Assembly (NCBI GenBank): GCA_934203355.1
Contig: CAKPZC010000010.1
Span: forward strand, 1 to 46,518
Length of the DNA: 46,518 nt
Reading direction: 5' to 3'
Origin: an uncultured Prevotella sp.
Lineage (GTDB): Bacteria; Bacteroidota; Bacteroidia; Bacteroidales; Bacteroidaceae
Of this stretch, positions 7,839 to 27,596 are shown in pieces. Position 1 is the first letter of the stretch. Every line of letters begins with the position of its first letter. Both the position numbers and the translations under genes were made by a program. The notes under the pieces were generated by a model, which did not search any database, was not told where the DNA came from, and saw only the letters and a program-made list of their open reading frames with translations.

Positions 7839-9230
7839 TTATTCGGAGAGGACCAGGCGGAGCCCGAGGTTGCTGTCACGGACGTCAGGCGTGCTGATGC
7901 CACGGTATGACGAGCGACAGTCCCAGACATAGTTGCGCCAGCTACCTCCACGGTACACGCGGCAAGACCCACTGGTAGCACCTGTAGGATTGGTCTGAGA
8001 CGAACTACTGTAGTTGTCATACCAATCCAGGCACCATTCCCATACATTACCACTCATATCATATATGCCTAATTCATTAGCTTGCTTAGAACCTACAGCA
8101 TGAGTTTTGTTGTTACTGTTGTCACCGTACCAAGCCACGTCTAAGATATTAATACTGCCGCTATACTGATAGCCTCGGCTCTTCTTTCCACCACGAGCGG
8201 CATACTCCCATTCAGCTTCTGTAGGAAGACGGAACGACTTGCCTGTTATACTGTTCAGTTTGCTGATAAAATCTTGACAGTCTGTCCAACTAATCTTCTC
8301 TACTGGCAAGTTGTCACCCTTGAATTCTGAAGGATTACTGCTCATAATCGTTTGCCATAAAGCCTGAGTCACTTCGTATTTGCCAATGTAATAATTTTTG
8401 GTAAGAGTTACTTCGTGATCTGGTTTTTCCCAATCTTCTGGATCCTCCATCTCTGGTGTCGCTCCCATTGTAAACGTACCAGCCTCAACACGAACCATGT
8501 CAATACTTATGCCATCCTTAACTGGAATAGAGATATTATCACTGTTAGTAACTGGAGTTTGCGCCACTGGTTGTTGAGCCACTATTGGTTGAGAAACAGT
8601 ACTTTGTTGCGTTGCCGTTGCTTCTTTAGAAAGAGTAATCTGAAGATTACTTGGAGTTGAGGCTTTTAGTTTTACTGTTCCTTCTTCTGAGTCATATCCA
8701 TCACAAAAGACAATAAAAGAGTGCTGACCTACTGGCAATGTTGTCTGAGCAACACCATTCTTTCCTTTCACCATTTTGTTGTCTACAAGCACTGTGGCAG
8801 AACTTGGAGTATAGCGTATGGTTAACTTTTGTTTTTGTTCTGATTGCATTCCACCAGAAGCAGTTACAACCAGCTCATATGTTCTATTACTTTCTACTTT
8901 CTCCACTCCATAATCAGCAAACGTCACCATTACGGGAGCATAGTTAGCGTGCTTCACCTTGAGCATACGGTTGCCTTGCGGCATATAAACCCAATACTCT
9001 CCTGTCTTGTTTTCCACATTTCCCATGATGTTGCCCTCAAACTGCACTCCTTGCAGTCCGAGACCAACTTTTATTAACGCACAGTTGTGGTTGTTCAAGT
9101 CCTTGCGTGGCTGAGTTTGGGCTGTAAGGTCGCTTGAAGCAAGCTTGAAGGATTTTACTGTCAGCTCTTGAGCAAATGTGGATGATATTTCCGCAAAAAG
9201 CAGGAATAGAGACAAAATAAATCTTCGCAT
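7839..9230 (-). CDS. Secreted SUMF/PEGA protein A with DGR-like variable C-terminus
   Basis: The start is set at MRRFILS (9230), which begins a signal peptide ending STFAQ; the frame continues upstream through an antitoxin-like remnant. The 463-residue product has a Bacteroidales-specific N-terminal domain (VKSFKLASSDLTAQTQPRKD; type 1, with QGVQFEGNIMGNVENKTGEY). It then has one PEGA domain (near 145-205), a Gln/Thr/Val linker, and an FGE-sulfatase domain (VRVEAGTFTMGA, YYIGKYEVTQALW, FRLPTEAEWEYAARGG, YDMSGNVWEWC). The last 43 residues are the variable region. The FGE domain has a C-type-lectin-like fold; the catalytic cysteine pair of true FGE is not preserved, so binding rather than catalysis is expected. 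Confidence 0.85.
   Translation of the reverse strand: MRRFILSLFLLFAEISSTFAQELTVKSFKLASSDLTAQTQPRKDLNNHNCALIKVGLGLQGVQFEGNIMGNVENKTGEYWVYMPQGNRMLKVKHANYAPVMVTFADYGVEKVESNRTYELVVTASGGMQSEQKQKLTIRYTPSSATVLVDNKMVKGKNGVAQTTLPVGQHSFIVFCDGYDSEEGTVKLKASTPSNLQITLSKEATATQQSTVSQPIVAQQPVAQTPVTNSDNISIPVKDGISIDMVRVEAGTFTMGATPEMEDPEDWEKPDHEVTLTKNYYIGKYEVTQALWQTIMSSNPSEFKGDNLPVEKISWTDCQDFISKLNSITGKSFRLPTEAEWEYAARGGKKSRGYQYSGSINILDVAWYGDNSNNKTHAVGSKQANELGIYDMSGNVWEWCLDWYDNYSSSSQTNPTGATSGSCRVYRGGSWRNYVWDCRSSYRGISTPDVRDSNLGLRLVLSE
7842..7970 (-). other. DGR-type variable region A
   Basis: This 129-nt segment ends the gene. Fixed codons alternate with codons differing from other copies at inferred template adenines. 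Readout: GS-C-RV-Y-RGG-S-W-RNYVWD-C, then R-GIS-T and R-DSN-LGLRL. The last 27 nt before the stop are almost adenine-free. Confidence 0.85.
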
Positions 9231-9395
9231 AGTTGTTATATGACAATGTTCTTTTTCATAAGATTCCACAATATCTGTAACCTCCATAAGCTCTAACATC
9301 AGAGGGTCATCAGAAGCTGTATTTTCTGTTATCTGTGGCAACAAAGCATCTATTCTTGCTTGTGCATATTCATATTTTTCTTTAGTAATTCCCAT
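9231..9395 (-). pseudogene. N-terminal remnant of a HigA-like antitoxin, in frame with SUMF gene A
   Basis: Starting at MGITKEKYEYAQARIDALL (9395), about 55 codons encode a segment resembling the N-terminus of HigA-type antitoxins, which have a YExxxxRIDxLL helix, an acidic stretch and an LxxLVxxYExxH end. Here it ends VTDIVESYEKEHCHI, where the helix-turn-helix domain should follow. Instead the frame runs through ITT into the SUMF signal peptide. A -7 box (TACTTTTG, minus strand, 9409-9416) lies just upstream, suggesting that an antitoxin promoter was captured. A nearly identical remnant precedes SUMF gene D (15048-15212). Whether it is translated as a fusion is unknown. Confidence 0.55.
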
Positions 9396-9408
9396 AAGCT
9401 TTTCTTTG

Positions 9409-9416
9409 CAAAAGTA
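9409..9416 (-). promoter_or_regulatory. -7 promoter box upstream of the antitoxin remnant
   Basis: TACTTTTG on the minus strand fits TAnnTTTG, 14 nt before the remnant's ATG. No -33 box at the usual spacing is evident, so activity is doubtful. The remaining gap to 9516 shows nothing else. Confidence 0.35.
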
Positions 9417-9516: not shown

Positions 9517-10680
9517 TTACTCGGAGAGGACTAAGCGGAGTCCAAGGTCGTAGTCACGGTTGTCAGGCGTGCTATTTCCACGGTAAGACGAGCGACAGAA
9601 CCTGGCAAAGTAGCACCAGCAACCTCCACGGCTCACGCGTTTAGATCCACTATTAGCACCTGTTGGATTTACTTGTGAAGAACTACTGTATTTGCCAAAC
9701 CTATTCTGACACCATTCCCACACATTCCCACTCATATCATATATGCCTAATTCATTAGCTTGTTTTGAACCAACAGTATGAGTTTTACTTCCGCTATTAT
9801 CTTCATACCAAGCCACATCAGAAAGGTTACTGCTACCGCTATACTGATAGCTTCGACTCTTGTTTCCGCCACGAGCAGCAAATTCCCATTCAGCTTATGT
9901 AGGGAGCCGGAACTTTTTGCCAGTTATTCTATTCAGCTTGCTAATAAATTTTTGGCAGTCTTTCCAACTAACTCTCTCTACTGGCAAGTTGTCACCCTTA
10001 AAGTAAGAAGGATTGTTGTCCATAACAGCTTGCCATAAAGCCTGTGTTACCTCGTATTTGCCAATGTAATAATCGTTGGTAAGAGTTACTTGATGTGCAG
10101 GCATCTCGCCATAAAATGGATTCTCCATCTCTGGTGTCGCCCCCATAGTAAATGTTCCTGCCTCAACACGAACCATCTCAATGCTTATACCTTCCTTTAC
10201 AGGTATTGAAATAGTATTCTCAGATACTGTTGGATGTGGTAGAGACGTTGATTGTTGAGGATTTAAGGACTGATTTGTCATATTAGGAGTTATTGCATAT
10301 TGTGGATATGTAACAATAATCAACTCATATGTTCTGTTGCTCTCCACCTTCTCTACTCCATAATCAGCAAACGTTACCATTACGGGAGCATAGTTAGCGT
10401 GTTTCACCTTGAGCATACGGTTACCTTGGGGCATATACACCCAGTACTCACCTGTCTTGTTCTCCACATTTCCCATGATGCTACCTTCGAACTGAACGCC
10501 TTGAAGTCCGAGACCAACTTTTATTAACGCACAGTTACGGTTGTTAAGATCTTTGCGTGGTTGAGTCTGGACAGTCAAGTCGCTTGGGACAAGCTTGAAG
10601 GACTTTATTGTCAGCTCTTGGGCAAGTGAGGATGATATTGCCGCAAAGAGAATTAATATGAATAAAAGTATCTTTTGCAT
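9517..10680 (-). pseudogene. SUMF gene B, interrupted by an in-frame nonsense codon
   Basis: The frame from MQKILLF (10680) to the stop at 9517 is intact in register but has a TAA at 9895-9897. The paralogues have GAA there, in the conserved LPTEAEW motif, so a single G-to-T change made the stop after 261 codons. The protein would have a signal peptide, a type 1 N-terminal domain, no PEGA domain, a short linker (TYPQYAITPNMTNQ) and the FGE domain. The truncated product loses half the FGE domain and the whole variable region. The downstream half keeps a normal open variable region. Sequencing error or a recent loss are both possible. Confidence 0.8.
9520..9648 (-). other. DGR-type variable region B (in the interrupted gene)
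   Basis: This is a 129-nt copy with the same fixed framework. Readout: GS-K-RV-S-RGG-C-W-CYFARF-C, R-GNS-T, D-N-R-DYD-LGLRL. It keeps the reading frame and the adenine-poor 3' block although the nonsense codon upstream prevents its translation. The 48-nt tail is mostly replaced by unrelated sequence. Confidence 0.8.
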
Positions 10681-10702
10681 AATTCTATATCATACATTAA
10701 TC

Positions 10703-12082
10703 TTATATTGAATGGGCAAGTCGAAGTCCAAGATTTTTAAATTTATTTTGTGGAGCCGTACCATTTCTATACGAACAACGGCAATACGTATCACCATTGT
10801 CATAGCCTCCACCACGAAAAACTTTATTGTAAGCCTTTATTGGTCCTGTTGGATAATATGCCGTTTTTTTGCCGTATGATCCATACCAATCTTGACACCA
10901 CTCCCATACATTACCCGACATATCATAAAGTCCCAATTCGTTAGGTTTCATCATTCCAACCGTATGAGTCTTATCCATACTATTGCGGAAACACCACGAT
11001 AAATATTCCAAGTAGTTTCCTCCACTATATTTATAATGCATGCTGTTACTTCCTCCACGAGCAGCATATTCCCATTCCGCTTCTGTGGGGAGTCTGTATT
11101 TTTTACCCGTAAGTTCATTTAACTTCATTATAAACTTTTGACAATCATCCCAGCTTACATTTTCTACTGGTAGATTTTTTCCTTTAAAATGTGAAGGATT
11201 ATCACCCATCACAGTCTCCCATAGTTCTTGAGTCACCTCATATTTGCATAAATAAAAACAATTCAATACAACTGGATGAGCAGGTTTTTCATCTGAATTA
11301 GCTTCTCCTTTCTGTTCTTTTGTCGCTCCCATAGTGAATTCCACTGCTTCAATATACACCATATCATCATTGAGTTTTTCTAATAATTTCGCAACACTGT
11401 CATTATCTGTTGTTTCATTTATATCCTCAATATGTTGGTTATTGTTTTCTGAAATACCATTGTCTACTATAGATTCTTTTAGTAAAGTTATCTGAATGGT
11501 ACTTGGAGCAGATGCTTTCAGTTTTACAGTTCCTTCCTCCGACTCATATCCATCACAAGCAACAATATATGAATGTTGACCAACCGTCAATGTTGTTTCT
11601 GCTATACCATTCGTTCCTTTAACAAATTTATTGTCAACAAGAACGGAAGCCGAAGTTGGTGAATATTTTATTCTCAACTTCTGGGTTTGTCGTTCAGCAA
11701 TGGTATTTGGCTTTTTCAATGTCAACACATACGTCGCTCCACTCTCCACCTTACCAATACCATAATCGTAAAAGTTAATCATAAGAGGAGTGTAGTTCTT
11801 ATGTAAAACTTGTAGCATGGAAACACCTTTTGGCATATAAACCCAATATTCACCAAGCTTTTGAACTGGTTCCCCCATAATGCTACCATCAAACTTCACA
11901 CCATCAAGAGCTATACCTACTTTTATGAGTGCACAGTTGCTGTCGTTCAAGTCCTTGCGTGGCTGAGTTTGGGCAGTAAGGTCGCTTGAGGCAAGCTTGA
12001 AGGACTCGACAGTGAGCTTTTGCGCAATGGCTGATGATATTGCTGCAAAGAGCAAGACAAGGGATAGAAGTATTTTACGCAT
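10703..12082 (-). CDS. Secreted SUMF/PEGA paralogue without the variable-region signature
   Basis: This 459-residue protein has a signal peptide (MRKILLSLVLLFAAISSAIA), a type 3 N-terminal domain (ALDGVKFDGSIMGEPVQK, shared with the 593-aa member), one PEGA domain (IKYSPTSASVLVDNKFVKG), an acidic linker and an FGE domain. The C-terminus is much more AT-rich and reads KVFRGGGYDNGDTYCRCSYR, then NGTAPQNKFKNLGLRLAHS. It lacks the nucleotide identity to the other variable regions, the adenine-poor end block and the 48-nt tail. It is therefore probably not a retroelement target, although it keeps the same fold and several Asn at the equivalent sites. Confidence 0.85.
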   Translation of the reverse strand: MRKILLSLVLLFAAISSAIAQKLTVESFKLASSDLTAQTQPRKDLNDSNCALIKVGIALDGVKFDGSIMGEPVQKLGEYWVYMPKGVSMLQVLHKNYTPLMINFYDYGIGKVESGATYVLTLKKPNTIAERQTQKLRIKYSPTSASVLVDNKFVKGTNGIAETTLTVGQHSYIVACDGYESEEGTVKLKASAPSTIQITLLKESIVDNGISENNNQHIEDINETTDNDSVAKLLEKLNDDMVYIEAVEFTMGATKEQKGEANSDEKPAHPVVLNCFYLCKYEVTQELWETVMGDNPSHFKGKNLPVENVSWDDCQKFIMKLNELTGKKYRLPTEAEWEYAARGGSNSMHYKYSGGNYLEYLSWCFRNSMDKTHTVGMMKPNELGLYDMSGNVWEWCQDWYGSYGKKTAYYPTGPIKAYNKVFRGGGYDNGDTYCRCSYRNGTAPQNKFKNLGLRLAHSI

Positions 12083-12151: not shown

Positions 12152-13594
12152 TTACTCGGAGAGGACTAAGCGGAACCCGAGGGTGTAGCTTCGGATATCA
12201 GGTGTAAAGAAGTAACGGTATGATGAGCGACAGTACCCGGCTGCGTAGAACCAGCAACCACCACGGAACACGCGTTCAGACCCACTATTAGCACCAGTAG
12301 GATTAACCTGTGAGGAGCTACTGTAAGTACCTTTCCAATCTTGACACCATTCCCATACATTACCACTCATATCATATATACCTAATTCATTACCTTGTTT
12401 TGAACCTACAGCATGAGTTTTACTGTCGCTATTATCTTCATACCAAGCCACATCAGAAATATTATTGCTACCACTATACTGATAGCCTTTAACGACACGA
12501 GCTACAGACCACACCGAGGAAATGATAGAGCGAAGCACTCTATTCTCCTTTCCACCACGAGCAGCATATTCCCATTCGGCTTCTGTAGGAAGACGGAATG
12601 ACTTGCCAGTTATACTGTTCAGTTTGCTGATGAATTCCTGACAGTCGTACCAACTAACCTGCTCTACAGGCAAGTCGTCACCCTTAAAGTAAGAAGGATT
12701 ATTGCCCATCACGGCTTTCCATAAAGCCTGTGTTACCTCGTATTTACCAATATAATAATCATTGGTAAGAGTAACTTGATGTGTAGGTTTTTCACCATCC
12801 CATGGATTCACCATCTCTGGTGTTGCTCCCATTGTAAACGTTCCAGCCTCAACACGAACCATATCGATGCTTATGCCATCCTTTACGGGAATAGTAATGT
12901 TATCCCTATTAACAACTGGAGTTTGCTCCACAGATTGCTGAGCCACTATCGGTTGAGAAACATTACTTTGTTGTGTTGCCGTTGCTTCTTTAGACAGAGT
13001 AATCTGAAGATTGCTTGGAGTTGAGGCTTTTAGTTTTACAGTTCCTTCCTCTGAGTCATACCCATCACAAAAGACAATATACGAGTGCTGACCTACTGGT
13101 AATGTCGTTTGAGCCACACCATTCATGCCTTTCACCATTTTATTATCCACAAGCACAGTGGCAGAACTTGGAGTATATCTGATTGTAAGAGTCTGCGACT
13201 GCTGCGCTTGTTGTTGACTGCTGCCCAAAAGTGTAAGCACATACGTGCGGTTGCTCTCTAACTTTTCAATATCATAGTCGGCGAATGTCACCATCAGAGG
13301 CAAATAGTTTTTGGTAATCACTTTCATCTGCCGTGTGTTCTGCGGCATATATACCCACGTTTCATTATTTCGCTTTACCAAAGGCATAATGACATTGCCC
13401 TCTATATTGGTTAGCTCACCTACAAACTGTACTTTTATCAAGGCACAGTTACGGTTGTTAAGGTCCTTGTGTGGCTGAGTCTGGGCTGTAAGGTCGCTTG
13501 GAGTAAGCTTGAAGGACTCGACTGTAAGCTTTTGGGCAAAGACTGATGATATTGCTGCAAATAGCAAAACGATTGATAGAAGTATTTTACGCAT
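12152..13594 (-). CDS. Secreted SUMF/PEGA protein C with a 17-residue insertion in the FGE domain
   Basis: The start is placed at MRKILLSIVLLFAA (13594), which opens a signal peptide; the longer open frame upstream is an out-of-frame reading of gene D's tail. The 480-residue product has a type 2 N-terminal domain (VQFVGELTNIEGNVIMPLVK), one PEGA domain, a Gln-rich linker and an FGE domain. After AARGGKENR there are 17 extra residues (VLRSIISSVWSVARVVK) absent from every paralogue; without them the length is the standard 463. The insertion lies beside a strongly conserved FGE core and could disturb folding. The C-terminal variable region is intact. Confidence 0.85.
   Translation of the reverse strand: MRKILLSIVLLFAAISSVFAQKLTVESFKLTPSDLTAQTQPHKDLNNRNCALIKVQFVGELTNIEGNVIMPLVKRNNETWVYMPQNTRQMKVITKNYLPLMVTFADYDIEKLESNRTYVLTLLGSSQQQAQQSQTLTIRYTPSSATVLVDNKMVKGMNGVAQTTLPVGQHSYIVFCDGYDSEEGTVKLKASTPSNLQITLSKEATATQQSNVSQPIVAQQSVEQTPVVNRDNITIPVKDGISIDMVRVEAGTFTMGATPEMVNPWDGEKPTHQVTLTNDYYIGKYEVTQALWKAVMGNNPSYFKGDDLPVEQVSWYDCQEFISKLNSITGKSFRLPTEAEWEYAARGGKENRVLRSIISSVWSVARVVKGYQYSGSNNISDVAWYEDNSDSKTHAVGSKQGNELGIYDMSGNVWEWCQDWKGTYSSSSQVNPTGANSGSERVFRGGCWFYAAGYCRSSYRYFFTPDIRSYTLGFRLVLSE
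12155..12283 (-). other. DGR-type variable region C
   Basis: A 129-nt copy. Readout: GS-E-RV-F-RGG-C-W-FYAAGY-C, R-YFF-T, D-I-R-SYT-LGFRL. Silent G/C/T changes (for example CGT GGT in place of CGT GGA) show that it has also drifted slightly at fixed positions. Confidence 0.83.
12488..12538 (-). other. 51-nt in-frame insertion within SUMF gene C
   Basis: Exactly 17 codons are inserted relative to all other SUMF genes. The insert contains a small inverted repeat (ATAGAG, 7-nt gap, CTCTAT). No target duplication was obvious by eye. Confidence 0.7.
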
Positions 13595-13615
13595 AAAATT
13601 TATATTTGTTTGAGG

Positions 13616-13661: not shown

Positions 13662-15047
13662 TTACTCGGAGAAGACCAGGCGGAGTCCAAGGTTGCCGCT
13701 GCGGTTGCCAGGCTCGTTGTAGGTACGGTATGACGAGTGACAGCCCGTGGCGCGCCAGCCACCTCCACGGATCACGCGGCCAGACCCACTGGCAGCACCT
13801 GTAGGATTAACCTGTGAAGAACTACTGTAAGAACCTTTCCAATCTTGACACCACTCCCACACATTACCAGACATATCATATATGCCTAATTCATTAGCTT
13901 GCTTAGAACCAACAGTATGGGGTTTGCTGTTGCTATTATCTTTATACCAAGCCACATCAGAAAGGTTACTGCTACCGCTATACTGAAAGCCTCGGCTCTT
14001 CTTTCCACCACGCGCAGCATATTCCCATTCGGCTTCTGTGGGAAGACGGAACTTTTTACCAGTTATACTGTTCAGCTTGCCGATGAATTTCTGACAGTCA
14101 TTCCAACTAACTTTCTCTACTGGTAAGCTTTCACCCTTGAATTCTGAAGGATTCTTACCCATTACGGCTTTCCACAAAGCCTGTGTTACCTCGTATTTGC
14201 CAATGTAATAATCATTGGTAAGAGTAACTTTATGTGTAGGTTTCTCATGTTCCAAAGGATTCTCCATCTCTGGAGTCGCTCCCATTGTAAACGTTCCTGC
14301 CTCAACACGAACCATATCAATGCTTATGCCATCCTTTACGGGGATAGAGATATTGTCACTATTAGTAACTGGAGTTTGCATCACTGGTTGCTGAGCTACT
14401 ATTTGTTGAGCAACAGTACTTTGTTGCGTTGCCGTAGCTTCTTTAGACAGAGTAATCTGAAGATTGCTCGGTGCTGAAGCCTTAAGCTTTACCATGCCTT
14501 CTTCCGACTCATAACCATCGCAAACCACAATATACGAGTGCTGACCTACGGGTAGTGTCGTTTGAGCAACACCATTCTTTCCCTTCACCATTTTGTTGTC
14601 CACAAGCACAGTAGCAGAACTTGGAGTATATCGTATGGTTAACTTTTGTTTTTGCTCAGCTTGCGCTCCACCTGAAGCAGTTACAACCAACTCATACGTT
14701 CTGTTGCTTTCCAACTTCTCAACCCCATAATCAGCAAAGTTCGCCATTACGGGTGCATAGTTAGGATGCTTCACTTTTAGCATACGATTGCCTTGTGGCA
14801 TATACACCCAGTACTCACCTGTCTTGTTATCCACATTTCCCATGATACTACCCTCAAACTGAACTCCTTGAAGTCCGAGGCCAACTTTTATTAACGCACA
14901 GTTACGGTTGTTAAGGTCCTTACGTGGCTGAGTTTGGGCTGTAAGGTCGCTTGAAGCAAGCTTGAATGATTTAACAGTTAGTTCTTGGGCAAGGGTAGAT
15001 GATATTGACGCAAAGAGCAGGAATAGAGACAAAATAAATCTTCGCAT
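13662..15047 (-). CDS. Secreted SUMF/PEGA protein D with DGR-like variable C-terminus
   Basis: The start is set at MRRFILSLFLLFASISS (15047), the signal peptide; the frame is open upstream through an antitoxin remnant, as in gene A. The 461-residue product has a type 1 N-terminal domain, one PEGA domain (IRYTPSSATVLVDNKMVKG), a Gln/Val linker and an FGE domain. It resembles gene A across the whole unit, including the remnant, so A and D look like a duplication. The variable region is two codons shorter than the standard, and one fixed Arg is His (CHSSYR). Confidence 0.85.
   Translation of the reverse strand: MRRFILSLFLLFASISSTLAQELTVKSFKLASSDLTAQTQPRKDLNNRNCALIKVGLGLQGVQFEGSIMGNVDNKTGEYWVYMPQGNRMLKVKHPNYAPVMANFADYGVEKLESNRTYELVVTASGGAQAEQKQKLTIRYTPSSATVLVDNKMVKGKNGVAQTTLPVGQHSYIVVCDGYESEEGMVKLKASAPSNLQITLSKEATATQQSTVAQQIVAQQPVMQTPVTNSDNISIPVKDGISIDMVRVEAGTFTMGATPEMENPLEHEKPTHKVTLTNDYYIGKYEVTQALWKAVMGKNPSEFKGESLPVEKVSWNDCQKFIGKLNSITGKKFRLPTEAEWEYAARGGKKSRGFQYSGSSNLSDVAWYKDNSNSKPHTVGSKQANELGIYDMSGNVWEWCQDWKGSYSSSSQVNPTGAASGSGRVIRGGGWRATGCHSSYRTYNEPGNRSGNLGLRLVFSE
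13665..13787 (-). other. DGR-type variable region D (6-nt deletion)
   Basis: At 123 nt it lacks two codons between the fixed Trp and Cys. Readout: GS-G-RV-I-RGG-G-W-RATG-C, R-TYN-E, G-N-R-SGN-LGLRL. It also has several changes not explained by template adenines (CAC for CGC, GAG for ACG), so it is drifting or older. Confidence 0.75.
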
Positions 15048-15333: not shown

Positions 15334-16725
15334 TTACTCGGAGAGAACCAAGCGGAGTCCATGATTTTTGTAACGGAAGTCAGGCGTACTGCAGAGACGG
15401 TCAGACGAGCGACAGTCCCTGGCAGTGTTGCCCCAGCTACCTCCACGGATCACGCGTTTAGACCCACCATCTGCACCTGTAGGATTTACCTGTGAGGAAC
15501 TACTATAACCTTCATACCAATCCTGACACCACTCCCACACATTACCACTCATATCATATATGCCTAATTCATTAGCTTGCTTAGAACCTACAGCATGAGT
15601 CTTGCTATCGCTATTATCTACATACCAAGCCACATCTTGAATACTATTACTACCGCTATACTGATAACCCCTACTCTTTTTTCCACCACGAGCGGCATAC
15701 TCCCATTCTGCTTCTGTTGGAAGACGGAACGTCTTTCCTGTCATACTGTTCAACTTACTGATGAATTCTTGACAGTCCTTCCAACTAACTTTCTCTACTG
15801 GCAAGTTATCACCCTTGAATTTTGAAGGATTATTACTCATAACCGCTTGCCATAAAGCCTGTGTTACCTCGTATTTACCAATATAATAATCGTTGGTAAG
15901 AATTACTTGATGAGCTACTTTCTCAAAATAAAACGGATCCTCAATCTTTGGTATCCCTCCCATAGTGAACGTTCCAGCCTCAACACGAACCATGTCGATG
16001 CTGATGCCATCCTTTACGGGAATGGAGATATTATCAACATTAGTAACTGGAGTTTGCGCCAAAGGTTCCTGAGCCACTGTTGATTGAGAAACTGTACTTT
16101 GTTGTATTGCCACTGCTTCTTTAGACAGAGTAATCTGAAGATTGCTTGGAGTAGAGGCTTTTAGTTTTACAGTTCCTTCCTCCGAGTCATACCCATCACA
16201 AGCCACAATATACGAGTGCTGCCCTACAGGCAATGTTGTCTGAGCAACACCATTCATGCCTTTCACCATTTTGTTGTCCACAAGCACAGTGGCTGTCGTT
16301 GGAGTATATCTTATTGTAAGAGTTTGCGACTGCTGCGCTTGTTGTTGGCTGTTACCCAAAAGCGTAAGCACATACGTGCGGTTGCTCTCCAAACGTTCAA
16401 TACCATAATCGGAGAATGTCACCATCAAAGGCAAAAAGTTTTTGGTGATTACTTTCATCTGTCGTGTGTTTTGCGGCATATATACCCACGTCTCGTTATT
16501 TCGCTTCACCAAAGGCATAATGACATTGCCTTCAACATTGAGAATGTCGCCTACAAACTGCACCTTAACAACAGCACAGTTGCGATTGTTAAGATCCTTG
16601 CGTGACTGACTTTGGGCAGTAAGGTCGCTTCCAGCGAGCTTGAAGGATTTTACCGTCAGCTCTTGAGCAAGTGTGGATGATATTGCTGCAAAGAGCAGGA
16701 CGATGGATAAAAGAATATTTCGCAT
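15334..16725 (-). CDS. Secreted SUMF/PEGA protein E with DGR-like variable C-terminus
   Basis: The 463-residue product has a signal peptide (MRNILLSIVLLFAAISSTLA) and a type 2 N-terminal domain (VQFVGDILNVEGNVIMPLVK, WVYMPQNTRQMKV). One PEGA domain (IRYTPTTATVLVDNKMVKG) and a linker rich in Gln/Ser/Thr/Val follow. The FGE domain contains VRVEAGTFTMGG and YEVTQALWQAVM. The last 43 residues are variable. It belongs to the type 2 group with genes C, H and J, showing that N-terminal type and variable region assort independently along the array. Confidence 0.85.
   Translation of the reverse strand: MRNILLSIVLLFAAISSTLAQELTVKSFKLAGSDLTAQSQSRKDLNNRNCAVVKVQFVGDILNVEGNVIMPLVKRNNETWVYMPQNTRQMKVITKNFLPLMVTFSDYGIERLESNRTYVLTLLGNSQQQAQQSQTLTIRYTPTTATVLVDNKMVKGMNGVAQTTLPVGQHSYIVACDGYDSEEGTVKLKASTPSNLQITLSKEAVAIQQSTVSQSTVAQEPLAQTPVTNVDNISIPVKDGISIDMVRVEAGTFTMGGIPKIEDPFYFEKVAHQVILTNDYYIGKYEVTQALWQAVMSNNPSKFKGDNLPVEKVSWKDCQEFISKLNSMTGKTFRLPTEAEWEYAARGGKKSRGYQYSGSNSIQDVAWYVDNSDSKTHAVGSKQANELGIYDMSGNVWEWCQDWYEGYSSSSQVNPTGADGGSKRVIRGGSWGNTARDCRSSDRLCSTPDFRYKNHGLRLVLSE
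15337..15465 (-). other. DGR-type variable region E
   Basis: A 129-nt copy. Readout: GS-K-RV-I-RGG-S-W-GNTARD-C, then SSD-R-LCS-T, D-F-R-YKN-HGLRL. The NTAR segment is close to the inferred template. Leu to His in the end block is not explained by adenine mutagenesis. Confidence 0.83.
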
Positions 16726-17834: not shown

Positions 17835-17863
17835 AGTTGACATTCTGTTTATATTAAAACGTA

Positions 17864-19110: not shown

Positions 19111-20502
19111 TTACTCAGAGAGGACTAGGCGGAGCCCAAGGTTGCCGTAACGGTCGTCAGGCGTGAAGAGGCCACGGCATGACCAGCGACAGCACTCGGC
19201 AGAGTGGAACCAGCCACCTCCACGGAACACGCGGTAAGACCCACTATTAGCACCTGTAGGATTGATCTGAGAAGAACTACTGTATTTGTCATACCAATCC
19301 TGACACCACTCAAACACATTACCAGTCATATCATATATGCCTAATTCATTAGCTTGCTTAGAACCAATAGTATGGGTTTTGCTACCGCTATTATCTTTAT
19401 ACCATGCCACATCAGAAAGATTATTGCTACCACTATACTGATAGCCTCGGCTCTTCTTTCCACCACGGGCGGCATATTCCCATTCGGCTTCTGTGGGGAG
19501 ACGGAACGTCTTGCCAGTTATTCTATTCAGCTTGTTGATGAATTCCTGACAGTCGTCCCAACTAACATTCTCTACAGGCAAGTTCTCACCCTTAAAGTTA
19601 GAAGGATTATTGCTCATAACAGCTTGCCATAAAGCCTGAGTAATTTCGTATTTGCCAATGTAATAATCGTTGGTCAGAGTTACTTGATGTGTTGGTTTTT
19701 CATCATCATCAGATTCTTTCATCTCTGGTGTCGCTCCCATTGTAAACGTTCCAGCCTCAACACGAACCATATCAATGCTTATGCCATCCTTTACTGGAAT
19801 AGAGATATTGTCACTATTAGTAACTGGAGTTTGCATCACTGATTGCTGGGCTACTGTTGGTTGAGAAACTGTACTTTGTTGTATTGCCGTTGCTTCTTTA
19901 GACAGAGTAATCTGAAGATTGCTTGGAGTAGAGGCTTTTAGTTTTACAGTTCCTTCCTCCGACTCATATCCATCGCAAGCCACAATATACGAGTGCTGAC
20001 CTACGGGCAATGTCGTCCTTGCCACACCATTCATGCTTTTCACCATTTTGTTATCCACAAGCACTGTAGCAGAACTTGGAGTATATTTGATTGTAAGAGT
20101 TTGTGTCTGCTGCGCTTGTTGTTGACTGCTGCCCAAAAGCGTAAGCACATACGTGCGATTGCTCTCTAACCGTTCAACATCATAGTCGGCGAATGTTACC
20201 ATCAGAGGCAAATAGTTTTTGGTGATAACTTTCATCTGCGGAGTATTATGCGTCATATAAACCCACGTCTCGTTGTTGCGCCTTACCAAAGGCATAATAA
20301 CATTGCCCTCAATATTGGTTAACTCACCTACAAACTGTACTTTCACAACAGCACAGTTGCGGTCGTTAAGGTCCTTGCGATACTGACTTTGGGCAGTAAG
20401 GTCGCTTGGGACAAGCTTAAAGGATTTTACTGTCAGCTCTTGCGCAAGGGCTGATGATATTGCCGCAAAGAGCATAAATAAGGATAAAAGAATATTTCGC
20501 AT
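19111..20502 (-). CDS. Secreted SUMF/PEGA protein H with DGR-like variable C-terminus
   Basis: The 463-residue product has a signal peptide (MRNILLSLFMLFAAISSALA), a type 2 N-terminal domain (VQFVGELTNIEGNVIMPLVR), one PEGA domain (IKYTPSSATVLVDNKMVKS), the usual Gln/Thr/Val linker and an FGE domain (YDMTGNVFEWCQDWYDKYS). The fixed GNVWEWC motif is GNVFEWC here. It starts only 15 nt after the stop of the DUF4143 ATPase gene upstream, so the ATPase promoter may drive it. The last 43 residues are variable. Confidence 0.85.
   Translation of the reverse strand: MRNILLSLFMLFAAISSALAQELTVKSFKLVPSDLTAQSQYRKDLNDRNCAVVKVQFVGELTNIEGNVIMPLVRRNNETWVYMTHNTPQMKVITKNYLPLMVTFADYDVERLESNRTYVLTLLGSSQQQAQQTQTLTIKYTPSSATVLVDNKMVKSMNGVARTTLPVGQHSYIVACDGYESEEGTVKLKASTPSNLQITLSKEATAIQQSTVSQPTVAQQSVMQTPVTNSDNISIPVKDGISIDMVRVEAGTFTMGATPEMKESDDDEKPTHQVTLTNDYYIGKYEITQALWQAVMSNNPSNFKGENLPVENVSWDDCQEFINKLNRITGKTFRLPTEAEWEYAARGGKKSRGYQYSGSNNLSDVAWYKDNSGSKTHTIGSKQANELGIYDMTGNVFEWCQDWYDKYSSSSQINPTGANSGSYRVFRGGGWFHSAECCRWSCRGLFTPDDRYGNLGLRLVLSE
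19114..19242 (-). other. DGR-type variable region H
   Basis: A 129-nt copy. Readout: GS-Y-RV-F-RGG-G-W-FHSAEC-C, then WSC-R-GLF-T, D-D-R-YGN-LGLRL. Ser to Trp after CR (TCG to TGG) is one of the few changes at a non-adenine site. Confidence 0.83.
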
Positions 20503-20517: not shown

Positions 20518-21786
20518 TTATTGTTTCTGTGTCTCACCATTCAGCACCCATTTCCAAACAGGCACAATCTCTATTTTCAACCCATCACGCTCCATCACTC
20601 CCTCGTCCTCGTATGTCACAATCATTGCCCTTTTCAGAGGATATAAAGAATTAAGGGCTACCAAGGCTTTTAGCTCACGCTTCAATGTAGACTCGTCGCT
20701 CATTCTATAACTGGCTTGAACAGCTATACCCTCGTCGGGCACATAGAAGTCAACCTCAATATTGCGGTTGAAATAATAGACGCCACTGCCATACTTCTTA
20801 TATAATGTAATGGCACATAGGTTTTCAAGCAACAGAGTGTCGGGGTTGTTGATGAAGAGGTGCAACAGTCCGTTGTCCACAAAATAGTGCTTCTTCACCG
20901 TTTCTTTTTCTGTGAACTTAGAGGCATAGTTGTCTAATGATATCAACAGACAAGACTCCTGCAAATATCTCACATACTCCATAATGGTGGACGCGCTGCA
21001 TGGAACACCAGTCGACTTAACCAAATTGCTCAATCTGTTCAACGAGCAGGGTTGCATCACGCTTTCTGCCAAGCGACGCACACACAGACGCAGGGCATCC
21101 TCGTTCTTTATCTTATGGCGCACAATAAGGTCGTTGAAGAATATGCGATTGTATAAGCTATTGAGCCAGATGCGCTTCTCGCGGAAGTTGACCAATTCCG
21201 GGAAACCACCCCAATCAAAATAAGTTCTGAAATGTCGTTGCAACTCATTAGCCTTCCTTCCATACTGCCATCCTCCAGCAATGTTTACACCAACAGCCGT
21301 AAGATATTCGCTAAAGCTATACGGAAAGACATTCACACTAAGATACCTGCCTCCCAAAACGGTCTCTATGTCACGGCTCAACATCTTGGCATTGCTTCCC
21401 GTCACATAAACACGATATTTCAAGTTGGCAAGGCGACGTGCAAAGTTAGCCCAACCGTCCACATTCTGTATTTCATCAAAGAAGAATATCGGCTGACCGC
21501 TATACATGCTGTGGTAGGCCTGAAGTATAAGGTCGAAGTCGGTAGCTGCCATCCCTTGCAGACGCTCATCGTCGAAGTTGACATAAACAATGTCCTCCAA
21601 CAGCTTTCCTTCTGCCAATAATTGCTGCACACGTTGATACAACAAGTAGGACTTTCCTGCCTGTCTTACACCTACAAACACGTAGTTGCCATACTCTTCC
21701 AAGTCAAGAGGACGCTCCACCAACGGTATGCTTCCTATATATTCTTGATTCTCAGATATTATCGTTCTTAACAATTCCTTATCCAT
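20518..21786 (-). CDS. AAA-family ATPase with DUF4143-type C-terminus
   Basis: The 422-residue product has Walker A GVRQAGKS (39-46) and Walker B FFFDEIQ (about 101-107), then a sensor-like segment RVYVTGSNAKML. The C-terminal half (LINNPDTLLLENLCAITLYKKYG, VYYFNRNIEVDFYV) looks like the DUF4143 domain, whose fold is related to restriction endonucleases. These AAA_14/DUF4143 proteins are common in Bacteroidetes and archaea, and their role is poorly known. It interrupts the SUMF array, has its own promoter overlapped by a paired palindrome, and ends 15 nt before SUMF gene H. It may be a passenger. Confidence 0.9.
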   Translation of the reverse strand: MDKELLRTIISENQEYIGSIPLVERPLDLEEYGNYVFVGVRQAGKSYLLYQRVQQLLAEGKLLEDIVYVNFDDERLQGMAATDFDLILQAYHSMYSGQPIFFFDEIQNVDGWANFARRLANLKYRVYVTGSNAKMLSRDIETVLGGRYLSVNVFPYSFSEYLTAVGVNIAGGWQYGRKANELQRHFRTYFDWGGFPELVNFREKRIWLNSLYNRIFFNDLIVRHKIKNEDALRLCVRRLAESVMQPCSLNRLSNLVKSTGVPCSASTIMEYVRYLQESCLLISLDNYASKFTEKETVKKHYFVDNGLLHLFINNPDTLLLENLCAITLYKKYGSGVYYFNRNIEVDFYVPDEGIAVQASYRMSDESTLKRELKALVALNSLYPLKRAMIVTYEDEGVMERDGLKIEIVPVWKWVLNGETQKQ

Positions 21787-21946: not shown

Positions 21947-23119
21947 TTACTCGGAGAGGACCAAGCGGAGCCCAAGGAAGCTGTAACGGCAGTCAGGCGT
22001 GCCGTAGCTACGGTACGACGAGCGACAGCCCCAGTCAGTGAAGATCCAGCTACCTCCACGTTCCACGCGGTTAGACCCAGTGGTAGCACCAGTAGGATTG
22101 GTCTGAGACGAACTACTGTAGTTGTCATACCTATCCTGACACCATTCATAGACGTTACCACTCATATCATATATGCCTAATTCATTAGCTTGCTTAGAAC
22201 CTACATCATGAGTTTTGTTGCCGCTATTATCACCATACCATGCCACATCAGAAAGGTTATTGCTACCGCTATACTGATACCCTCTGCTCTTGTTTCCGCC
22301 ACGGGCAGCATATTCCCATTCGGCTTCAGTAGGGAGACGGAACGTCTTGCCTGTTATACTGTTCAGTTTGCTGATAAATTTTTGGCAGTCCTTCCAACTA
22401 ACATTCTCAACTGGCAAATTGTCTCCCTTAAATCCCGAAGGATTATTACCCATTACGGCTTTCCATAAAGCCTGTGTCACCTCGTATTTGCCAATGTAAT
22501 AATCATTGGTAAGAGTAACTTGGTGTGTTGGTTCCTCATTATCAAATGGAGCCCACAGATTCTTCATCTCCCGTGTTGCTCCCATTGTGAACGTACCAGC
22601 CTCAACACGAACCATATCAATGCTTATACCATCCTTTATTGGTATTGAAATAGTATTATCTGATACTGTTGGAGGTATTTGAGGTGTGGATTGTTGAGGC
22701 TTTACTGGCTGATTTGTCACATTAGGAGTAATAGCATATTGTGGGTATGTAACGACAACCAACTCATATGTTCTGTTGCTCTCCACCTTCTCCACTCCAT
22801 AATCAGCAAAGTTCACCATTACGGGAGCATAGTTAGCGTGCTTCACTTTTAGCATACGGTTGCCTTGCGGCATATACACCCAATATTCTCCAGTTTTGTT
22901 CTCCACACTACCCATGATGCTGCCCTCGAACTGAACTCCTTGCAGTCCAAGACCAACTTTTATCAAGGCACAGTTTTTGTTATTCAAGTCTTTGCGTGGC
23001 TGAGTTTGGGCTGTAAGGTCGCTTGAAGCAAGCTTGAAGGACTCGACTGTGAGTTTTTGCGCTGAGGCATTATACAAAACACAAAATGCAAGAAAAACAA
23101 AAAATAATACTTTTTTCAT
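21947..23119 (-). CDS. Secreted SUMF protein I with DGR-like variable C-terminus, no PEGA
   Basis: The 390-residue product has a different signal peptide (MKKVLFFVFLAFCVLYNASA), a type 1 N-terminal domain, a linker almost the same as in interrupted gene B (TYPQYAITPNVTNQPVKPQQ) and no PEGA domain. The FGE domain contains VRVEAGTFTMGA with a short insertion (NLWAPFDNEEPTHQV). The final 43 residues are variable. Its signal peptide and leader differ from the rest of the array, suggesting that a recombination junction lies near its start. Confidence 0.85.
   Translation of the reverse strand: MKKVLFFVFLAFCVLYNASAQKLTVESFKLASSDLTAQTQPRKDLNNKNCALIKVGLGLQGVQFEGSIMGSVENKTGEYWVYMPQGNRMLKVKHANYAPVMVNFADYGVEKVESNRTYELVVVTYPQYAITPNVTNQPVKPQQSTPQIPPTVSDNTISIPIKDGISIDMVRVEAGTFTMGATREMKNLWAPFDNEEPTHQVTLTNDYYIGKYEVTQALWKAVMGNNPSGFKGDNLPVENVSWKDCQKFISKLNSITGKTFRLPTEAEWEYAARGGNKSRGYQYSGSNNLSDVAWYGDNSGNKTHDVGSKQANELGIYDMSGNVYEWCQDRYDNYSSSSQTNPTGATTGSNRVERGGSWIFTDWGCRSSYRSYGTPDCRYSFLGLRLVLSE
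21950..22078 (-). other. DGR-type variable region I
   Basis: A 129-nt copy. Readout: GS-N-RV-E-RGG-S-W-IFTDWG-C, R-SYG-T, D-C-R-YSF-LGLRL. Confidence 0.84.
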
Positions 23120-24264: not shown

Positions 24265-25653
24265 TTACTCGGAGAGAACCAGACGGAGCCCAAGTCCGCT
24301 GCCACGGTCGTCAGGCGTGCTGCCAATACGGCATGACGAGCGACAGCCCCAGTCAATAATCTCCCAGCTACCTCCACGGATCACGCGTTTAGACCCACTA
24401 TTAGCACCAGTAGGATTGGTCTGAGAAGAACTGCTGTATTTGCCATACTTATCCTGACACCATTCCCATACATTACCACTCATATCATATATGCCTAATT
24501 CATTAGCTTGCTTAGAACCTACATCATGAGTTTTGTTGCCGCTATTATCTTCATACCATGCTACATCAGAAAGGTTACTGCTACCACTATACTGATAGCC
24601 TCGGCTCTTCTTGCCGCCACGAGCAGCATATTCCCATTCGGCTTCTGTAGGAAGACGGAACGTCTTGCCAGTTGTATTATTCAACTTGCTCAAGAATTCT
24701 TGACAGTCCTTCCAACTAACATTCTCTACTGGCAAGTTGTCACCCTTAAAGTTAGAAGGATTATTGCCCATAACCGCTTTCCATAAAGCCTGAGTTACCT
24801 CGTATTTACCTATGTAATAATTGTTGGTAAGAGTTACTTGATGTGTAGGTCTCTCATCTTCATAAGATTCATTCATTTCAGATGCTGTTCCCATTACAAA
24901 CGTTCCTACCTCAACCCGAACCATTTCAATGCTTATGCCATCCTTTACTGGAATGGAGATATTATCACCATTAGAAACAGGAGTTTGTGCCACTGGTTGC
25001 TGGGCTACTATTGGTTGAGAAACAGTACTTTGCGTTGCCATTGCTTCTTTTGTCAGCGTAATTTGCAGATTGCTTGGTGCTGAAGCTTTAAGCTTTACTG
25101 TTCCTTCTTCCGACTCATATCCATTACAAGCCACAACAAAAGAGTGTTGACCTACAGGCAATGTTGTTTGTGCTACGCCATTTGAGCCATTAATCATTTT
25201 ATTGTCTACAAGAACAGTAGCGATAGACGGTGAGTATCTTATGGTGAGAGTTTGCGACTGCTGCGCTTGTTGTTGACTGTTCCCAACAAGTGTAAGCACA
25301 TACGTGCGGTTGCTCTCCAATCTATCTACTCCGTAGTCTTCAAATGTAACCATAAGCGGAAGATAGTCTTTGGTTGTGATTTTTAATTGCCGTGATCTTT
25401 GTGGCATATACACCCATGTCTCATTCGTGTACTTAACAACAGGCTTGACTATATTTCCATCGAAATCAATAATGTCGCCAACAAACAACACTTTGACAAC
25501 AGCACAATTGTAATTGTTGGTATCCTTGCGTGGCTGAGTTTGGGCAGTAAGGTCGCTTGAAGCAAGCTTGAAGGACTTTACTGTTAGCTCTTGGGCAAGG
25601 GCTGATGATATTGCAGCAAAGAGCAATAAGAAGGATAAAAGTATATTTCGCAT
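24265..25653 (-). CDS. Secreted SUMF/PEGA protein J with DGR-like variable C-terminus
   Basis: The 462-residue product has a signal peptide (MRNILLSFLLLFAAISSALA), a diverged type 2 N-terminal domain (VLFVGDIIDFDGNIVKPVVK), one PEGA domain (IRYSPSIATVLVDNKMING), the linker, and an FGE domain in which VRVEVGTFVMGT replaces the usual VRVEAGTFTMGA. A paired palindrome like the ATPase operator lies 32 nt upstream, but without the ATPase gene or a -7 box. This suggests that an ATPase gene was once here and was lost. Confidence 0.85.
   Translation of the reverse strand: MRNILLSFLLLFAAISSALAQELTVKSFKLASSDLTAQTQPRKDTNNYNCAVVKVLFVGDIIDFDGNIVKPVVKYTNETWVYMPQRSRQLKITTKDYLPLMVTFEDYGVDRLESNRTYVLTLVGNSQQQAQQSQTLTIRYSPSIATVLVDNKMINGSNGVAQTTLPVGQHSFVVACNGYESEEGTVKLKASAPSNLQITLTKEAMATQSTVSQPIVAQQPVAQTPVSNGDNISIPVKDGISIEMVRVEVGTFVMGTASEMNESYEDERPTHQVTLTNNYYIGKYEVTQALWKAVMGNNPSNFKGDNLPVENVSWKDCQEFLSKLNNTTGKTFRLPTEAEWEYAARGGKKSRGYQYSGSSNLSDVAWYEDNSGNKTHDVGSKQANELGIYDMSGNVWEWCQDKYGKYSSSSQTNPTGANSGSKRVIRGGSWEIIDWGCRSSCRIGSTPDDRGSGLGLRLVLSE
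24268..24396 (-). other. DGR-type variable region J
   Basis: A 129-nt copy. Readout: GS-K-RV-I-RGG-S-W-EIIDWG-C, then SSC-R-IGS-T, D-D-R-GSG-LGLRL. It shares the DWG-C stretch with copy I. Confidence 0.84.
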
Positions 25654-25684
25654 AGTTATTGTTTATGTTTTCTTACACTTATTT

Positions 25685-25738
25685 TTATTCGGTGGCACAA
25701 AATAAAAAACGGTGATTTTATTCGGTGGCAGCGAATAA
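25685..25738 (-). promoter_or_regulatory. Orphan paired palindromic operator (copy 3)
   Basis: Palindromes at 25685-25705 and 25718-25738 match those upstream of the ATPase almost base for base, with the same 33-nt period. There is no TAnnTTTG between them and SUMF gene J and no ATPase gene follows. It appears to be a remnant left by deletion or recombination. Confidence 0.6.
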
Positions 25739-25766
25739 AAATCAAGCAAAGCCTTCTCGTTTTGAG

Positions 25767-25814
25767 GCTTAGGACATTAATAATAAAAGTGGATGACTCA
25801 AAACAAGAAAGTCG
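25767..25814 (-). repeat. 48-nt conserved tail after variable region K
   Basis: Copy 8 of the post-stop tail, followed by the orphan operator. Confidence 0.8.
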
Positions 25815-27596
25815 TTACTCGGAGAGGACCAGGCGGAGCCCGAGGATGCAGTAGCGGATGCCAGGCGCGTCGTAGGCACGGTATGACGAGCGACAGTCCC
25901 TGGCAGAGCTGCAGCAGCTACCTCCACGGTTCACGCGGTTAGACCCACTATTAGCACCAGTAGGATTGGTCTGAGAAGAACTGCTGTATTTGCCATACCA
26001 ATCCTGGCACCATTCCCATACATTACCACTCATATCATATATGCCTAATTCATTAGCTTGTTTTGAACCAACAGCATGAGTTTTACTGCCGCTATTATCT
26101 TCATACCAAGCCACATCAGCAAGGTTATTGCTGCCGCTATACTGATAACCTCTACTCTTCTTTCCGCCACGAGCGGCAAATTCCCATTCGGCTTCTGTGG
26201 GGAGACGGAACGCCTTGCCAGTTATTCTATTCAGCTTGTTGATGAATTCCTGACAGTCGTTCCAACTCACCTGTTCTACTGGTAAGTTGTCACCCTTAAA
26301 GTTAGAAGGATTGTTGCTCATCACCGCTTTCCATAAAGCTTGAGTAACCTCGTATTTACCTATATAATAATCATTGGTAAGAGTTACTTGATGCGTTGGT
26401 TTTTCATCATCATACGGATCCTTCATCTCAGGTGTTGCTCCCATAGTAAACGTTCCTGCCTCAACACGGACCATATCGATGCTTATGCCTTTCTTTACGG
26501 GAATAGTTATTGTATTACCAGACGATGAAACTCCTGATACTACGGATGATGAAGAATTGGTTGTCAACATGCCCGCTAAAGTAGCTGTCTGACCTTCCAA
26601 TATATTCACTTGTTTGCTTTCCGTGCCATATCCGTCCTTCTTTATCTCCACTTTATGATTACCCACCAATAAACCATTGAACACACGTGGACTTTGTCCT
26701 ATCTTCTTTCCATCGACATAGACATCAGCTCCAAATGGCTTATAGTTTACAGAAAGGTTGCCTTGTATGGCTGCAAGTTCTGTAAAAGCCACATCAAGTT
26801 TCTGTTGTTGAGACAGATTGATGGTGCGCTGCAGACTGCGGTAGCCATCCTTCTTTGCCTCGATAAGGTGCATACCCTCTTTTAGGCTTCCAGTCCAAGG
26901 TATCGTGCCAACGGATTTCTTGTCAACATATAGCGACACGGCAGGTGTTGGGCAGGTGACAGAGACCGTAGCCATAGCAGAGACAAGGCTGACATTGATG
27001 GGAGTCATATCGCTATTGCTGATGGTGAACGAGCCACTCTTGGAGATATAGCCTCCTGCCTCCACCTTATAAGTATGACTACCATAAGGAAGCATGGCAG
27101 AATACTCACCGTCGGTGGATACCGTCTGCTGATTGCCATCGATGGTGACGACAGCATTCTTGGGGTTAACAGTGAGCGCATAGAAGTTGCCTCCGGCATC
27201 AGCAGGCTCTGTGCTGCCTGAAGGCTTTGACAATGTAAGGATGTATGTCATTCCACTCTCCACCTTGCCTACACCATAGTCGTAGAAATTGACCATAAGG
27301 GGAGTGTAGTTCTTGTGCAAAATCTGAAGCATGGGAGCACCCTTAGGCATATACACCCAATACTCGCCCAACTTCTGAATTGGTTCGCCCATAATGCTAC
27401 CATCAAACTTAACGCCATCGAGAGCGATGCCCACCTTGACAAGAGCACAATTAAGATTGTTGAGGTCCTTGCGAGGGTGCGATTGGGCAGTGATGTCGTT
27501 TGAGGCAAGCTTGAAGGACTCCACCTTGAGCTTCTGGGCAAAGACAGTAGACATTATTGCAAAAAGCATGAAAAAGGATAATAATATCTTTCGCAT
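25815..27596 (-). CDS. Secreted SUMF protein K with three PEGA domains and DGR-like variable C-terminus
   Basis: At 593 residues this is the largest member. It has a signal peptide (MRKILLSFFMLFAIMSTVFA) and a type 3 N-terminal domain (ALDGVKFDGSIMGEPIQK). Three successive PEGA-type domains follow: VNPKNAVVTIDGNQQTV, PAVSLYVDKKSVGTIPWTG and KPFGADVYVDGKKIGQSP. A Ser/Val linker, the FGE domain and the variable region complete it. PEGA domains are short beta modules found on exported bacterial proteins. It is the first SUMF gene after the kinase (27 nt gap), so the two are almost certainly co-transcribed. The fixed Trp of the variable region is Cys here (RGGSCC). Confidence 0.87.
   Translation of the reverse strand: MRKILLSFFMLFAIMSTVFAQKLKVESFKLASNDITAQSHPRKDLNNLNCALVKVGIALDGVKFDGSIMGEPIQKLGEYWVYMPKGAPMLQILHKNYTPLMVNFYDYGVGKVESGMTYILTLSKPSGSTEPADAGGNFYALTVNPKNAVVTIDGNQQTVSTDGEYSAMLPYGSHTYKVEAGGYISKSGSFTISNSDMTPINVSLVSAMATVSVTCPTPAVSLYVDKKSVGTIPWTGSLKEGMHLIEAKKDGYRSLQRTINLSQQQKLDVAFTELAAIQGNLSVNYKPFGADVYVDGKKIGQSPRVFNGLLVGNHKVEIKKDGYGTESKQVNILEGQTATLAGMLTTNSSSSVVSGVSSSGNTITIPVKKGISIDMVRVEAGTFTMGATPEMKDPYDDEKPTHQVTLTNDYYIGKYEVTQALWKAVMSNNPSNFKGDNLPVEQVSWNDCQEFINKLNRITGKAFRLPTEAEWEFAARGGKKSRGYQYSGSNNLADVAWYEDNSGSKTHAVGSKQANELGIYDMSGNVWEWCQDWYGKYSSSSQTNPTGANSGSNRVNRGGSCCSSARDCRSSYRAYDAPGIRYCILGLRLVLSE
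25818..25946 (-). other. DGR-type variable region K
   Basis: A 129-nt copy. Readout: GS-N-RV-N-RGG-S-C-CSSARD-C, R-AYD-A, G-I-R-YCI-LGLRL. The TGG to TGC change at the fixed Trp is not explained by adenine mutagenesis. Confidence 0.83.

Follow-up and report, generated by a model that had tools for sequence, protein, structure and literature searches.

Nine FGE-fold genes of a single Prevotella array carry variable ends of the diversity-generating-retroelement type

RESULTS

Nine variable ends in an array of twelve FGE-fold genes

We analyzed a 46,518-nucleotide (nt) stretch of DNA from an uncultured Prevotella sp. (GenBank assembly GCA_934203355.1, contig CAKPZC010000010.1, positions 1 to 46,518; here called the window), which carries an array of FGE/SUMF-fold genes whose 3′ ends resemble the targets of diversity-generating retroelements (DGRs). 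Bases 1485-7783 are 97.4% identical to a contig of the conspecific strain An906 (L003), and bases 24211-33325 are 92% identical to a second An906 contig (L002). By sequence, the window derives from Leyella (Prevotella) stercorea or from a strain very close to it. A sister genome, G338, has the same flank at 94% identity. Both An906 and G338 are drafts, as are most of the genomes compared below.

Twelve FGE/SUMF-fold genes (PF03781, Pfam) lie within 7839-27596, all on the minus strand. Nine of them, with stop-codon ends at 7839, 9517, 12152, 13662, 15334, 19111, 21947, 24265, and 25815, carry a 3′-terminal variable region, which spans 126 nt in eight genes and is two codons shorter (120 nt) in gene 13662. 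Codon alignment placed the regions, all on the minus strand, at 7839..7964 (gene 7839-9230; also supported by the template test below), 9517..9642 (pseudogene 9517-10680), 12152..12277 (gene 12152-13594), 13662..13781 (gene 13662-15047), 15334..15459 (gene 15334-16725), 19111..19236 (gene 19111-20502), 21947..22072 (gene 21947-23119), 24265..24390 (gene 24265-25653), and 25815..25940 (gene 25815-27596). About 17 codons of each region vary, and the framework codons are fixed. In pseudogene 9517-10680, an in-frame TAG is located upstream of the variable region.

A first-pass annotation of this DNA had described nine adjacent genes in tandem with DGR-type variable regions at their ends. The codon alignment bears out the nine ends and their places on the minus strand, but the FGE genes number twelve in all and the nine targets are not strictly adjacent. 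Interspersed among them are two FGE genes without a variable region of the array type, 10703..12082 (minus strand, Pfam), which served as an internal control, and 16749..17843 (minus strand, Pfam and codon alignment); an FGE gene with a diverged end at 17864..19042 (minus strand, Pfam and codon alignment); an AAA_14/DUF4143 ATPase gene at 20518..21786 (minus strand, Pfam); and a gene of no recognized family at 23171-24136. One of the nine targets is broken.

The ATPase gene corresponds to PADLOC candidate PDC-S01, and a similar gene lies between FGE genes in G338 (L194:1090-2346). By eye, the FGE domain of gene 12152-13594 has an insertion of about 17 residues that is unseen in its paralogs. 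A similar 55-residue segment (ITKEKYEYAQARIDALL...) precedes variable FGE genes 7839 and 13662 in frame (9231-9395 and 15048-15212, minus strand). This segment, which has no Pfam family above the cut-off and no NCBIfam match, resembles a remnant of another gene, present twice.

DGRs of the genus provide external templates

A degenerate template pattern was searched over 398 genomes of the genus and matched six of them. Five of the matches are template repeats; the match in L128 is not a template and was set aside. The five templates translate as NRVNRGGSWNN[NT]x[RT]NCRxxNRNNNxPxN[RT]NNNLG[LF]RLAL. In G018, G187, G335, and G402, a reverse transcriptase (RT) gene with the motif LPIGNLTSQ or VPIGNLTSQ lies directly before the template. 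An FGE gene is also part of all four loci; its end is variable in three of them and goes out of frame in G335. The gene order in G018 (L114) is FGE target, RecQ-C-terminus-like accessory gene (which we take to be of the HRDC type), RT, and template. A further genome, G394 (L198, contig 24), has a template repeat for which the query used found no RT; it is possibly a template lacking its RT.

The DGRs of the genus (L114, L199, L200, and L201) resemble the array in their FGE-type gene and have an RT with the LPIGNLTSQ or VPIGNLTSQ motif and a template encoding NRVNRGGSWNN..xNCR..NRNNN.P.NRNNNLG.RL, but at the loci that were read a single FGE-type gene adjoins the RT and template. The framework also differs, with CRV or CRT in the genus DGRs and CRSS in the array. 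Because of these framework residues, the genus DGRs are to be seen as relatives of the writer of the array and not as the writer itself.

Variation falls on template-adenine columns

The consensus of the five template repeats served as an external template for 15 variable regions, nine from the window plus six from An906. FGE genes 10703, 16749, and 17864 were excluded from this set, and a six-base gap was inserted in the 13662 region for the alignment. With a column counted as variable if its entropy exceeded 0.9, 29 of 33 template-A columns were variable, compared with 9 of 81 non-A columns (Fisher p = 4e-15). In codons opposite template asparagine (Asn) codons, the first base was A in 74 cases, T in 75, G in 50, and C in 10; the second base was A in 87, G in 62, T in 44, and C in 16; and the third base was C in 176 of 209. 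For comparison, eight of the genes were examined upstream of the regions; of the 2781 codons there whose residues an NNC codon can encode, 631 ended in C. A looser set that included diverged ends gave third-base C in 99/154 for the window (11 ends) and 76/98 for An906, against upstream fractions of 0.17 and 0.16, respectively.

The claims that variation concentrates where the template is inferred to have adenine, and that the variable codons keep C in third position, were therefore borne out with templates external to the array. Substitutions were not spread evenly over the template bases, and relatives in the genus carry an RT and template with a closely similar framework. Like known DGR targets, the variable regions combine variation confined (with exceptions) to template adenines with a location at the 3′ end of a gene of the FGE/C-type-lectin (CLec) fold. 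Together with the silent sites described next, these results support a DGR-type interpretation of the array ends.

Silent sites point to recent overwriting of the framework

Gene 13662 was excluded from the silent-site and pairwise codon comparisons, which thus cover 14 regions or genes. At 33 conserved four-fold sites upstream of the regions, the mean minor-base fraction was 0.26. Inside the regions it was 0.04 at C sites (7 sites), 0.09 at G sites (4), and 0.04 at T sites (5), while at A sites it was 0.29 (two sites). Pairwise silent non-A divergence, within and between strains, was 0.066-0.096 in the regions versus 0.25-0.26 upstream. Low silent non-A divergence is expected from repeated overwriting by one template. 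Four-fold divergence between the window strain and An906 was 103/1229 = 0.084 in seven conserved neighbors and FGE gene 10703. Since silent divergence in the regions resembles this value, the comparison suggests overwriting of the framework from a single source about when the two strains parted, with the A columns saturated. Gene conversion alone would be insufficient, because it would homogenize framework and A columns alike.

Across the 91 pairs of the 14 regions, at most 6 of 17 variable codons were held in common (mean, 2.4), in runs of no more than 3. The lack of any region common to two copies, taken with the silent-site age, implies that writing likely continued within the lifetime of the species.

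Variable ends differ among strains and homologues

The ends of orthologous genes 24265 and 25815 are quite different in An906. The part of the putative operon upstream of these genes is mostly 93-99% identical to An906 per 150 bases, and the N-terminal parts of the two genes are mostly 85-98% identical. Their FGE part is a mosaic, at 75-93% per tile, with the best match switching among paralogs. FGE gene 10703 is 92-100% identical to An906 in 11 tiles of 120 nt and 77.5% identical in the start tile.

A wider homologue set consisted of 78 proteins (>440 and <500 amino acids) among the 120 matches listed of 6769 found. In this set, the 40 residues of highest variability included all 16 tested template-A codon positions. 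Entropy averaged 2.86 at these positions; the other positions of the region averaged 0.46, the remainder of the FGE domain 0.42, and the N-terminal part 0.36. Homologues P0014 and P0018 are identical over residues 1-417; their 20 differences all fall in 418-453, in or just beside the region.

A conserved 3′ tail follows the variable genes

A conserved noncoding tail of about 45 nt, with the core CTCTTATTATTAATGTCCTAA, follows eight of the nine variable genes of the window, as found by tail alignment and motif scan (for example, 7793..7838, minus strand). The tail after gene 9517 has decayed, and there is none after FGE genes 10703, 16749, and 17864. In the other two genomes, allowing up to three mismatches, the tail follows all six variable genes of An906 and two in G338, and it occurs nowhere else there. 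The motif had one match in G187 and none in G018 or G088. No perfect stem of 6-12 bp with a loop of 3-8 was found in the tail. Candidate hairpins 3′ of the regions were also rejected, as in three rows the stems fall on the start of the next gene. The tail may be a recognition site or may reflect mere shared ancestry.

Search for a reverse transcriptase and template

A YxDD scan, Pfam, and framework and template-like scans of both strands detected neither a DGR RT nor a template in the window. The Pfam run covered 40 of the 73 listed open reading frames, which the remainder mostly overlap. The framework and template-like scans recovered the known ends alone, with no donor copies outside genes, and Pfam/NCBIfam scans recognized no accessory gene of the Avd or HRDC type in the window.

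In the An906 draft, the one RVT_1 match is an RT with the motif QGGPLSP, presumably of the group II intron type. It was rejected as the writer, since QGGPLSP is the form seen in group II intron RTs. In G338, an RT-like match (L214) did not show the SQ motif on inspection. The L114 RT had matches at E ≤ 1e-20 in 18 of the 398 genus genomes; not all of these are confirmed DGR RTs, and the cut-off misses further SQ-motif RTs, such as those of G012 and G014.

In a census of FGE ends, C was kept at 10 or more of the 14 third positions by 16 of 28 ends, and in the G088 array by 3 of 6. Two of the 16 C-keeping census ends come from genomes with a DGR RT (G402 and G187). When two RT queries were run against 13 genomes carrying C-keeping ends, An906 and G338 included, nine had no match, and none of the matches inspected in the other four (An906, G338, G105, and G295) shows the LPIG-LTSQ form. 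In G105, the frame reads IGLRSSQ and the matched stretch is interrupted by one stop, so this genome may still have an SQ-type RT; a further, weak G105 match lies outside the inspected set. In G295, the motif was not seen in the RT match, and a 31-residue RT-like fragment is also present.

Remnants and arrays were observed in other genomes. In G018, which also has an intact DGR, an RT remnant followed by stops lies about 200 bases past a second FGE gene (L217, C2:136432) and is apparently a decayed DGR. In G088, another species of the genus, six FGE genes whose ends are similar lie in a stretch of 8 kb (L197, contig 18), and neither DGR RT query has a match; this is possibly a second array without a writer. 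When a DGR RT served as the query of a protein search, none of the 120 matches listed of 2188, most of which bear no species name, was named for the species. A phage origin was also considered and dropped, with no match in viral contigs to two patterns and two protein queries; phage and plasmid records yielded FGE relatives alone, at <60% identity.

The array lies between a kinase and a phosphatase gene

The array is flanked directly upstream by a Ser/Thr protein kinase gene (27624..29138; one apparent membrane span by eye) and directly downstream by a PP2C phosphatase gene (6886..7737). Farther upstream are genes for a caspase-like peptidase (Peptidase_C14; 29770..30534) and an FHA-domain protein (30559..31206), all four being Pfam assignments on the minus strand. 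A radical SAM/SPASM protein (TIGR04133; 32204..33271) and an UpxY-family transcription antiterminator (33339..33977), both above cut-off, are encoded on the same strand, and a weakly FHA-like protein, a weakly LytTR-like protein, and an acidic repeat protein are also encoded upstream of the array. From 33977 down to 1485, the genes taken as real lie on one strand with gaps of no more than 281 bases, which makes a single long operon plausible; the UpxY gene is likely its first gene.

Elsewhere in the window, a peptide-N-glycosidase F-like protein with three Pfam parts is encoded at 43125-44810 (minus strand), near a GH109-like gene at 39997-41652. These glycosidase genes suggest glycoprotein use.

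Products are predicted to be exported and lack the FGE cysteine pair

By eye, the products of the array begin with a signal-peptide-like sequence and show no obvious lipobox cysteine. The closest solved structure to the product of 24265-25653 is the Treponema denticola variable protein 2y3c (E = 2.5e-35). When this product was aligned to the FGE 6muj, the first cysteine of LCHDSYC fell on hypervariable I432 and the second on invariant C437. We take the LCHDSYC cysteines of 6muj to be the catalytic pair. Residue I432 (codon 11) is Cys in none of the 15 regions, and the FGE active-site cysteine pair is thus not retained. Because the position of the first LCHDSYC cysteine is hypervariable and never Cys, sulfatase-activating activity is unlikely.

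A putative role as sensors that feed phosphorylation signaling can be inferred. Related sensor proposals have been made for cyanobacteria (PMC7517822) and purple sulfur bacteria (PMC10907252).

DISCUSSION

The nine ends were very probably written by a DGR of the genus type acting from outside the window, because the changes in the ends fall on the template-adenine positions of the genus DGRs. In the mechanism that we propose, an RT would copy template RNA with errors at adenines, and the mutated cDNA would replace gene ends. The RT and template would be variably present in the species and either act in trans or have been lost; if the writer was lost, the variable ends would persist and be exchanged by recombination among paralogs and strains. 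The products are predicted to be exported, noncatalytic binding proteins of the C-type-lectin fold, like the T. denticola variable protein, with a hypervariable pocket on the FGE active-site region. Their ligands may be read out by the neighboring kinase, PP2C, FHA, and caspase-like proteins. As a group, the nine copies probably constitute a rapidly changing repertoire of secreted binding proteins.

Several findings weigh against this explanation. The regions are not pristine: the third base is other than C in 33 of 209 template-Asn codons and is C in just 99/154 of the looser window set (11 ends, diverged ones included), the first position of codon 20 is never A, there is one TGG → TGC change, silent changes occur at codons 29, 33, and 37, and framework codon identity averages 74%. 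The silent test at A sites depends on two sites. Neither the An906 draft nor the sister draft G338 yielded a DGR RT to two different RT queries, or a template. Of the 35 homologue pairs that are at least 97% identical when the region is left aside, 20 show no change at the variable positions; each of the five large replacements involves one and the same protein, P0014, a possible assembly chimera; and P0017 and P0018 differ at residues 422-434 only, resembling recombination. Since most close pairs are unchanged, the large replacements all involve P0014, and the P0017/P0018 change is partial, replacement of the ends, as read from these sequences, is episodic, and partial exchange occurs; individual proteins of the set may be assembly chimeras.

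Two explanations dispense with error-prone copying. One is ordinary divergence of paralogs, with positive selection acting on surface loops. In its favor, FGE ends of other species show variation at these positions too, and some of them lack the NNC signature, since in 12 of 28 census ends fewer than 10 of the 14 third positions are C. Yet selection on residues would fail to keep silent non-A sites at about one-third of upstream divergence while the first and second bases of template-Asn codons were saturated (mean difference, 0.67/0.62), nor would the variation land on template-A columns, and we consider this explanation improbable. Gene conversion from silent cassettes, as in antigenic variation loci, could explain the mosaic FGE bodies and the one protein pair that differs in part of the region only. 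Haplotypes would then be shared, yet the 91 pairs have at most 6 of 17 codons in common, in runs of no more than 3, and the window has no donor copies outside genes; such conversion appears even more improbable than selection.

Writing by a DGR can itself take two forms. In one, the DGR has been lost from the lineage, and present strain differences come from paralog recombination and imports. This form, which we place close to an even chance, is favored by the failure to find an RT or template in the An906 and G338 drafts, by the mosaic FGE bodies of the two orthologous genes next to the conserved gene 10703, and by the RT-like remnants in relatives G018 and G295. Loss of the writer with surviving targets also has a precedent, because 8 of 17 T. 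denticola genomes keep 2-6 target genes without an RT or template repeat (PMC4891356). It is opposed by the fact that no region is common to any two of the 14 copies and that silent divergence dates the overwriting to about the strain split; moreover, both close genomes are drafts. In the other form, all nine ends are currently being written in trans, by a DGR that resides on a mobile element or at another site of the genome. We give this form a slightly smaller but still serious chance. Remote-target diversification has been argued for Thiohalocapsa PB-PSB1 (PMC10907252), and T. denticola strains with a DGR have one RT and template repeat with two to seven scattered targets (PMC4891356). As would be expected of a cis recognition site, the tail accompanies eight of the nine variable genes and is absent after the other three FGE genes. 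A writer acting in trans at present is disfavored in that the two nearest genomes yielded none and that neither two pattern scans nor two protein queries gave a match in viral contigs.

FGE-fold DGR targets, remote targets, and targets without an RT are already known. The T. denticola system (2y3c; PMC4891356) is like the array in its FGE/CLec-fold targets, C-terminal variable regions, asparagine-type template codons, and multiple targets per genome, but its targets are scattered and 62% have lipoprotein signals, whereas the array holds nine ends in one 18-kb operon-like unit, with signal peptides lacking an obvious lipobox and with kinase and phosphatase flanks. Up to four variable regions per cassette have been described, among them three tandem FGE paralogs in one open reading frame (PMC3521204). 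That Marichromatium purpuratum DGR shares with the array its tandem FGE-sulfatase paralogs, each with a variable region; its three lie in one reading frame by the DGR RT, while the array has nine separate ends and no RT in the window. The antigen sensors of PMC10907252 and the cyanobacterial targets of PMC7517822 likewise link FGE/CLec variable domains to kinases, caspase-like peptidases, or conflict systems. In those systems the variable domain is often fused to a signaling or effector domain, whereas the array encodes separate, apparently exported proteins. Larger target numbers are on record, with 15 targets across nine loci in Thiohalocapsa (PMC10907252) and larger counts for atypical repeats (PMC6642488). 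The novelty lies in the arrangement, in which 18 kb flanked by kinase and PP2C phosphatase genes hold nine variable ends, within a single probable operon led by an antiterminator gene; our searches of open-access papers turned up no tandem array of nine variable ends.

DGRs are usually found through an RT next to its template and targets, and a survey of the global microbiome states that its own approach would leave remote targets undetected (PMC8144416). The array is a heavily diversified set of the kind that such scans miss. Elsewhere in the genus, DGR-like FGE ends likewise occur in genomes in which two RT queries revealed no clear DGR RT. With a transient RT that acts in trans, a diversified repertoire would outlive its writer. 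A bolder idea, which we hold to be rather unlikely, is that gut Prevotellaceae keep a tandem, nine-member, antibody-like exported repertoire that a visiting trans-acting DGR, present in some strains at one time and in others at another, rewrites in bursts, so that the array and not the retroelement would be stably inherited. If true, this repertoire would sit in a single antiterminator-led operon of kinase, phosphatase, and caspase genes. The kinase-array-phosphatase layout makes ligand sensing by bacterial hypervariable C-type-lectin proteins testable.

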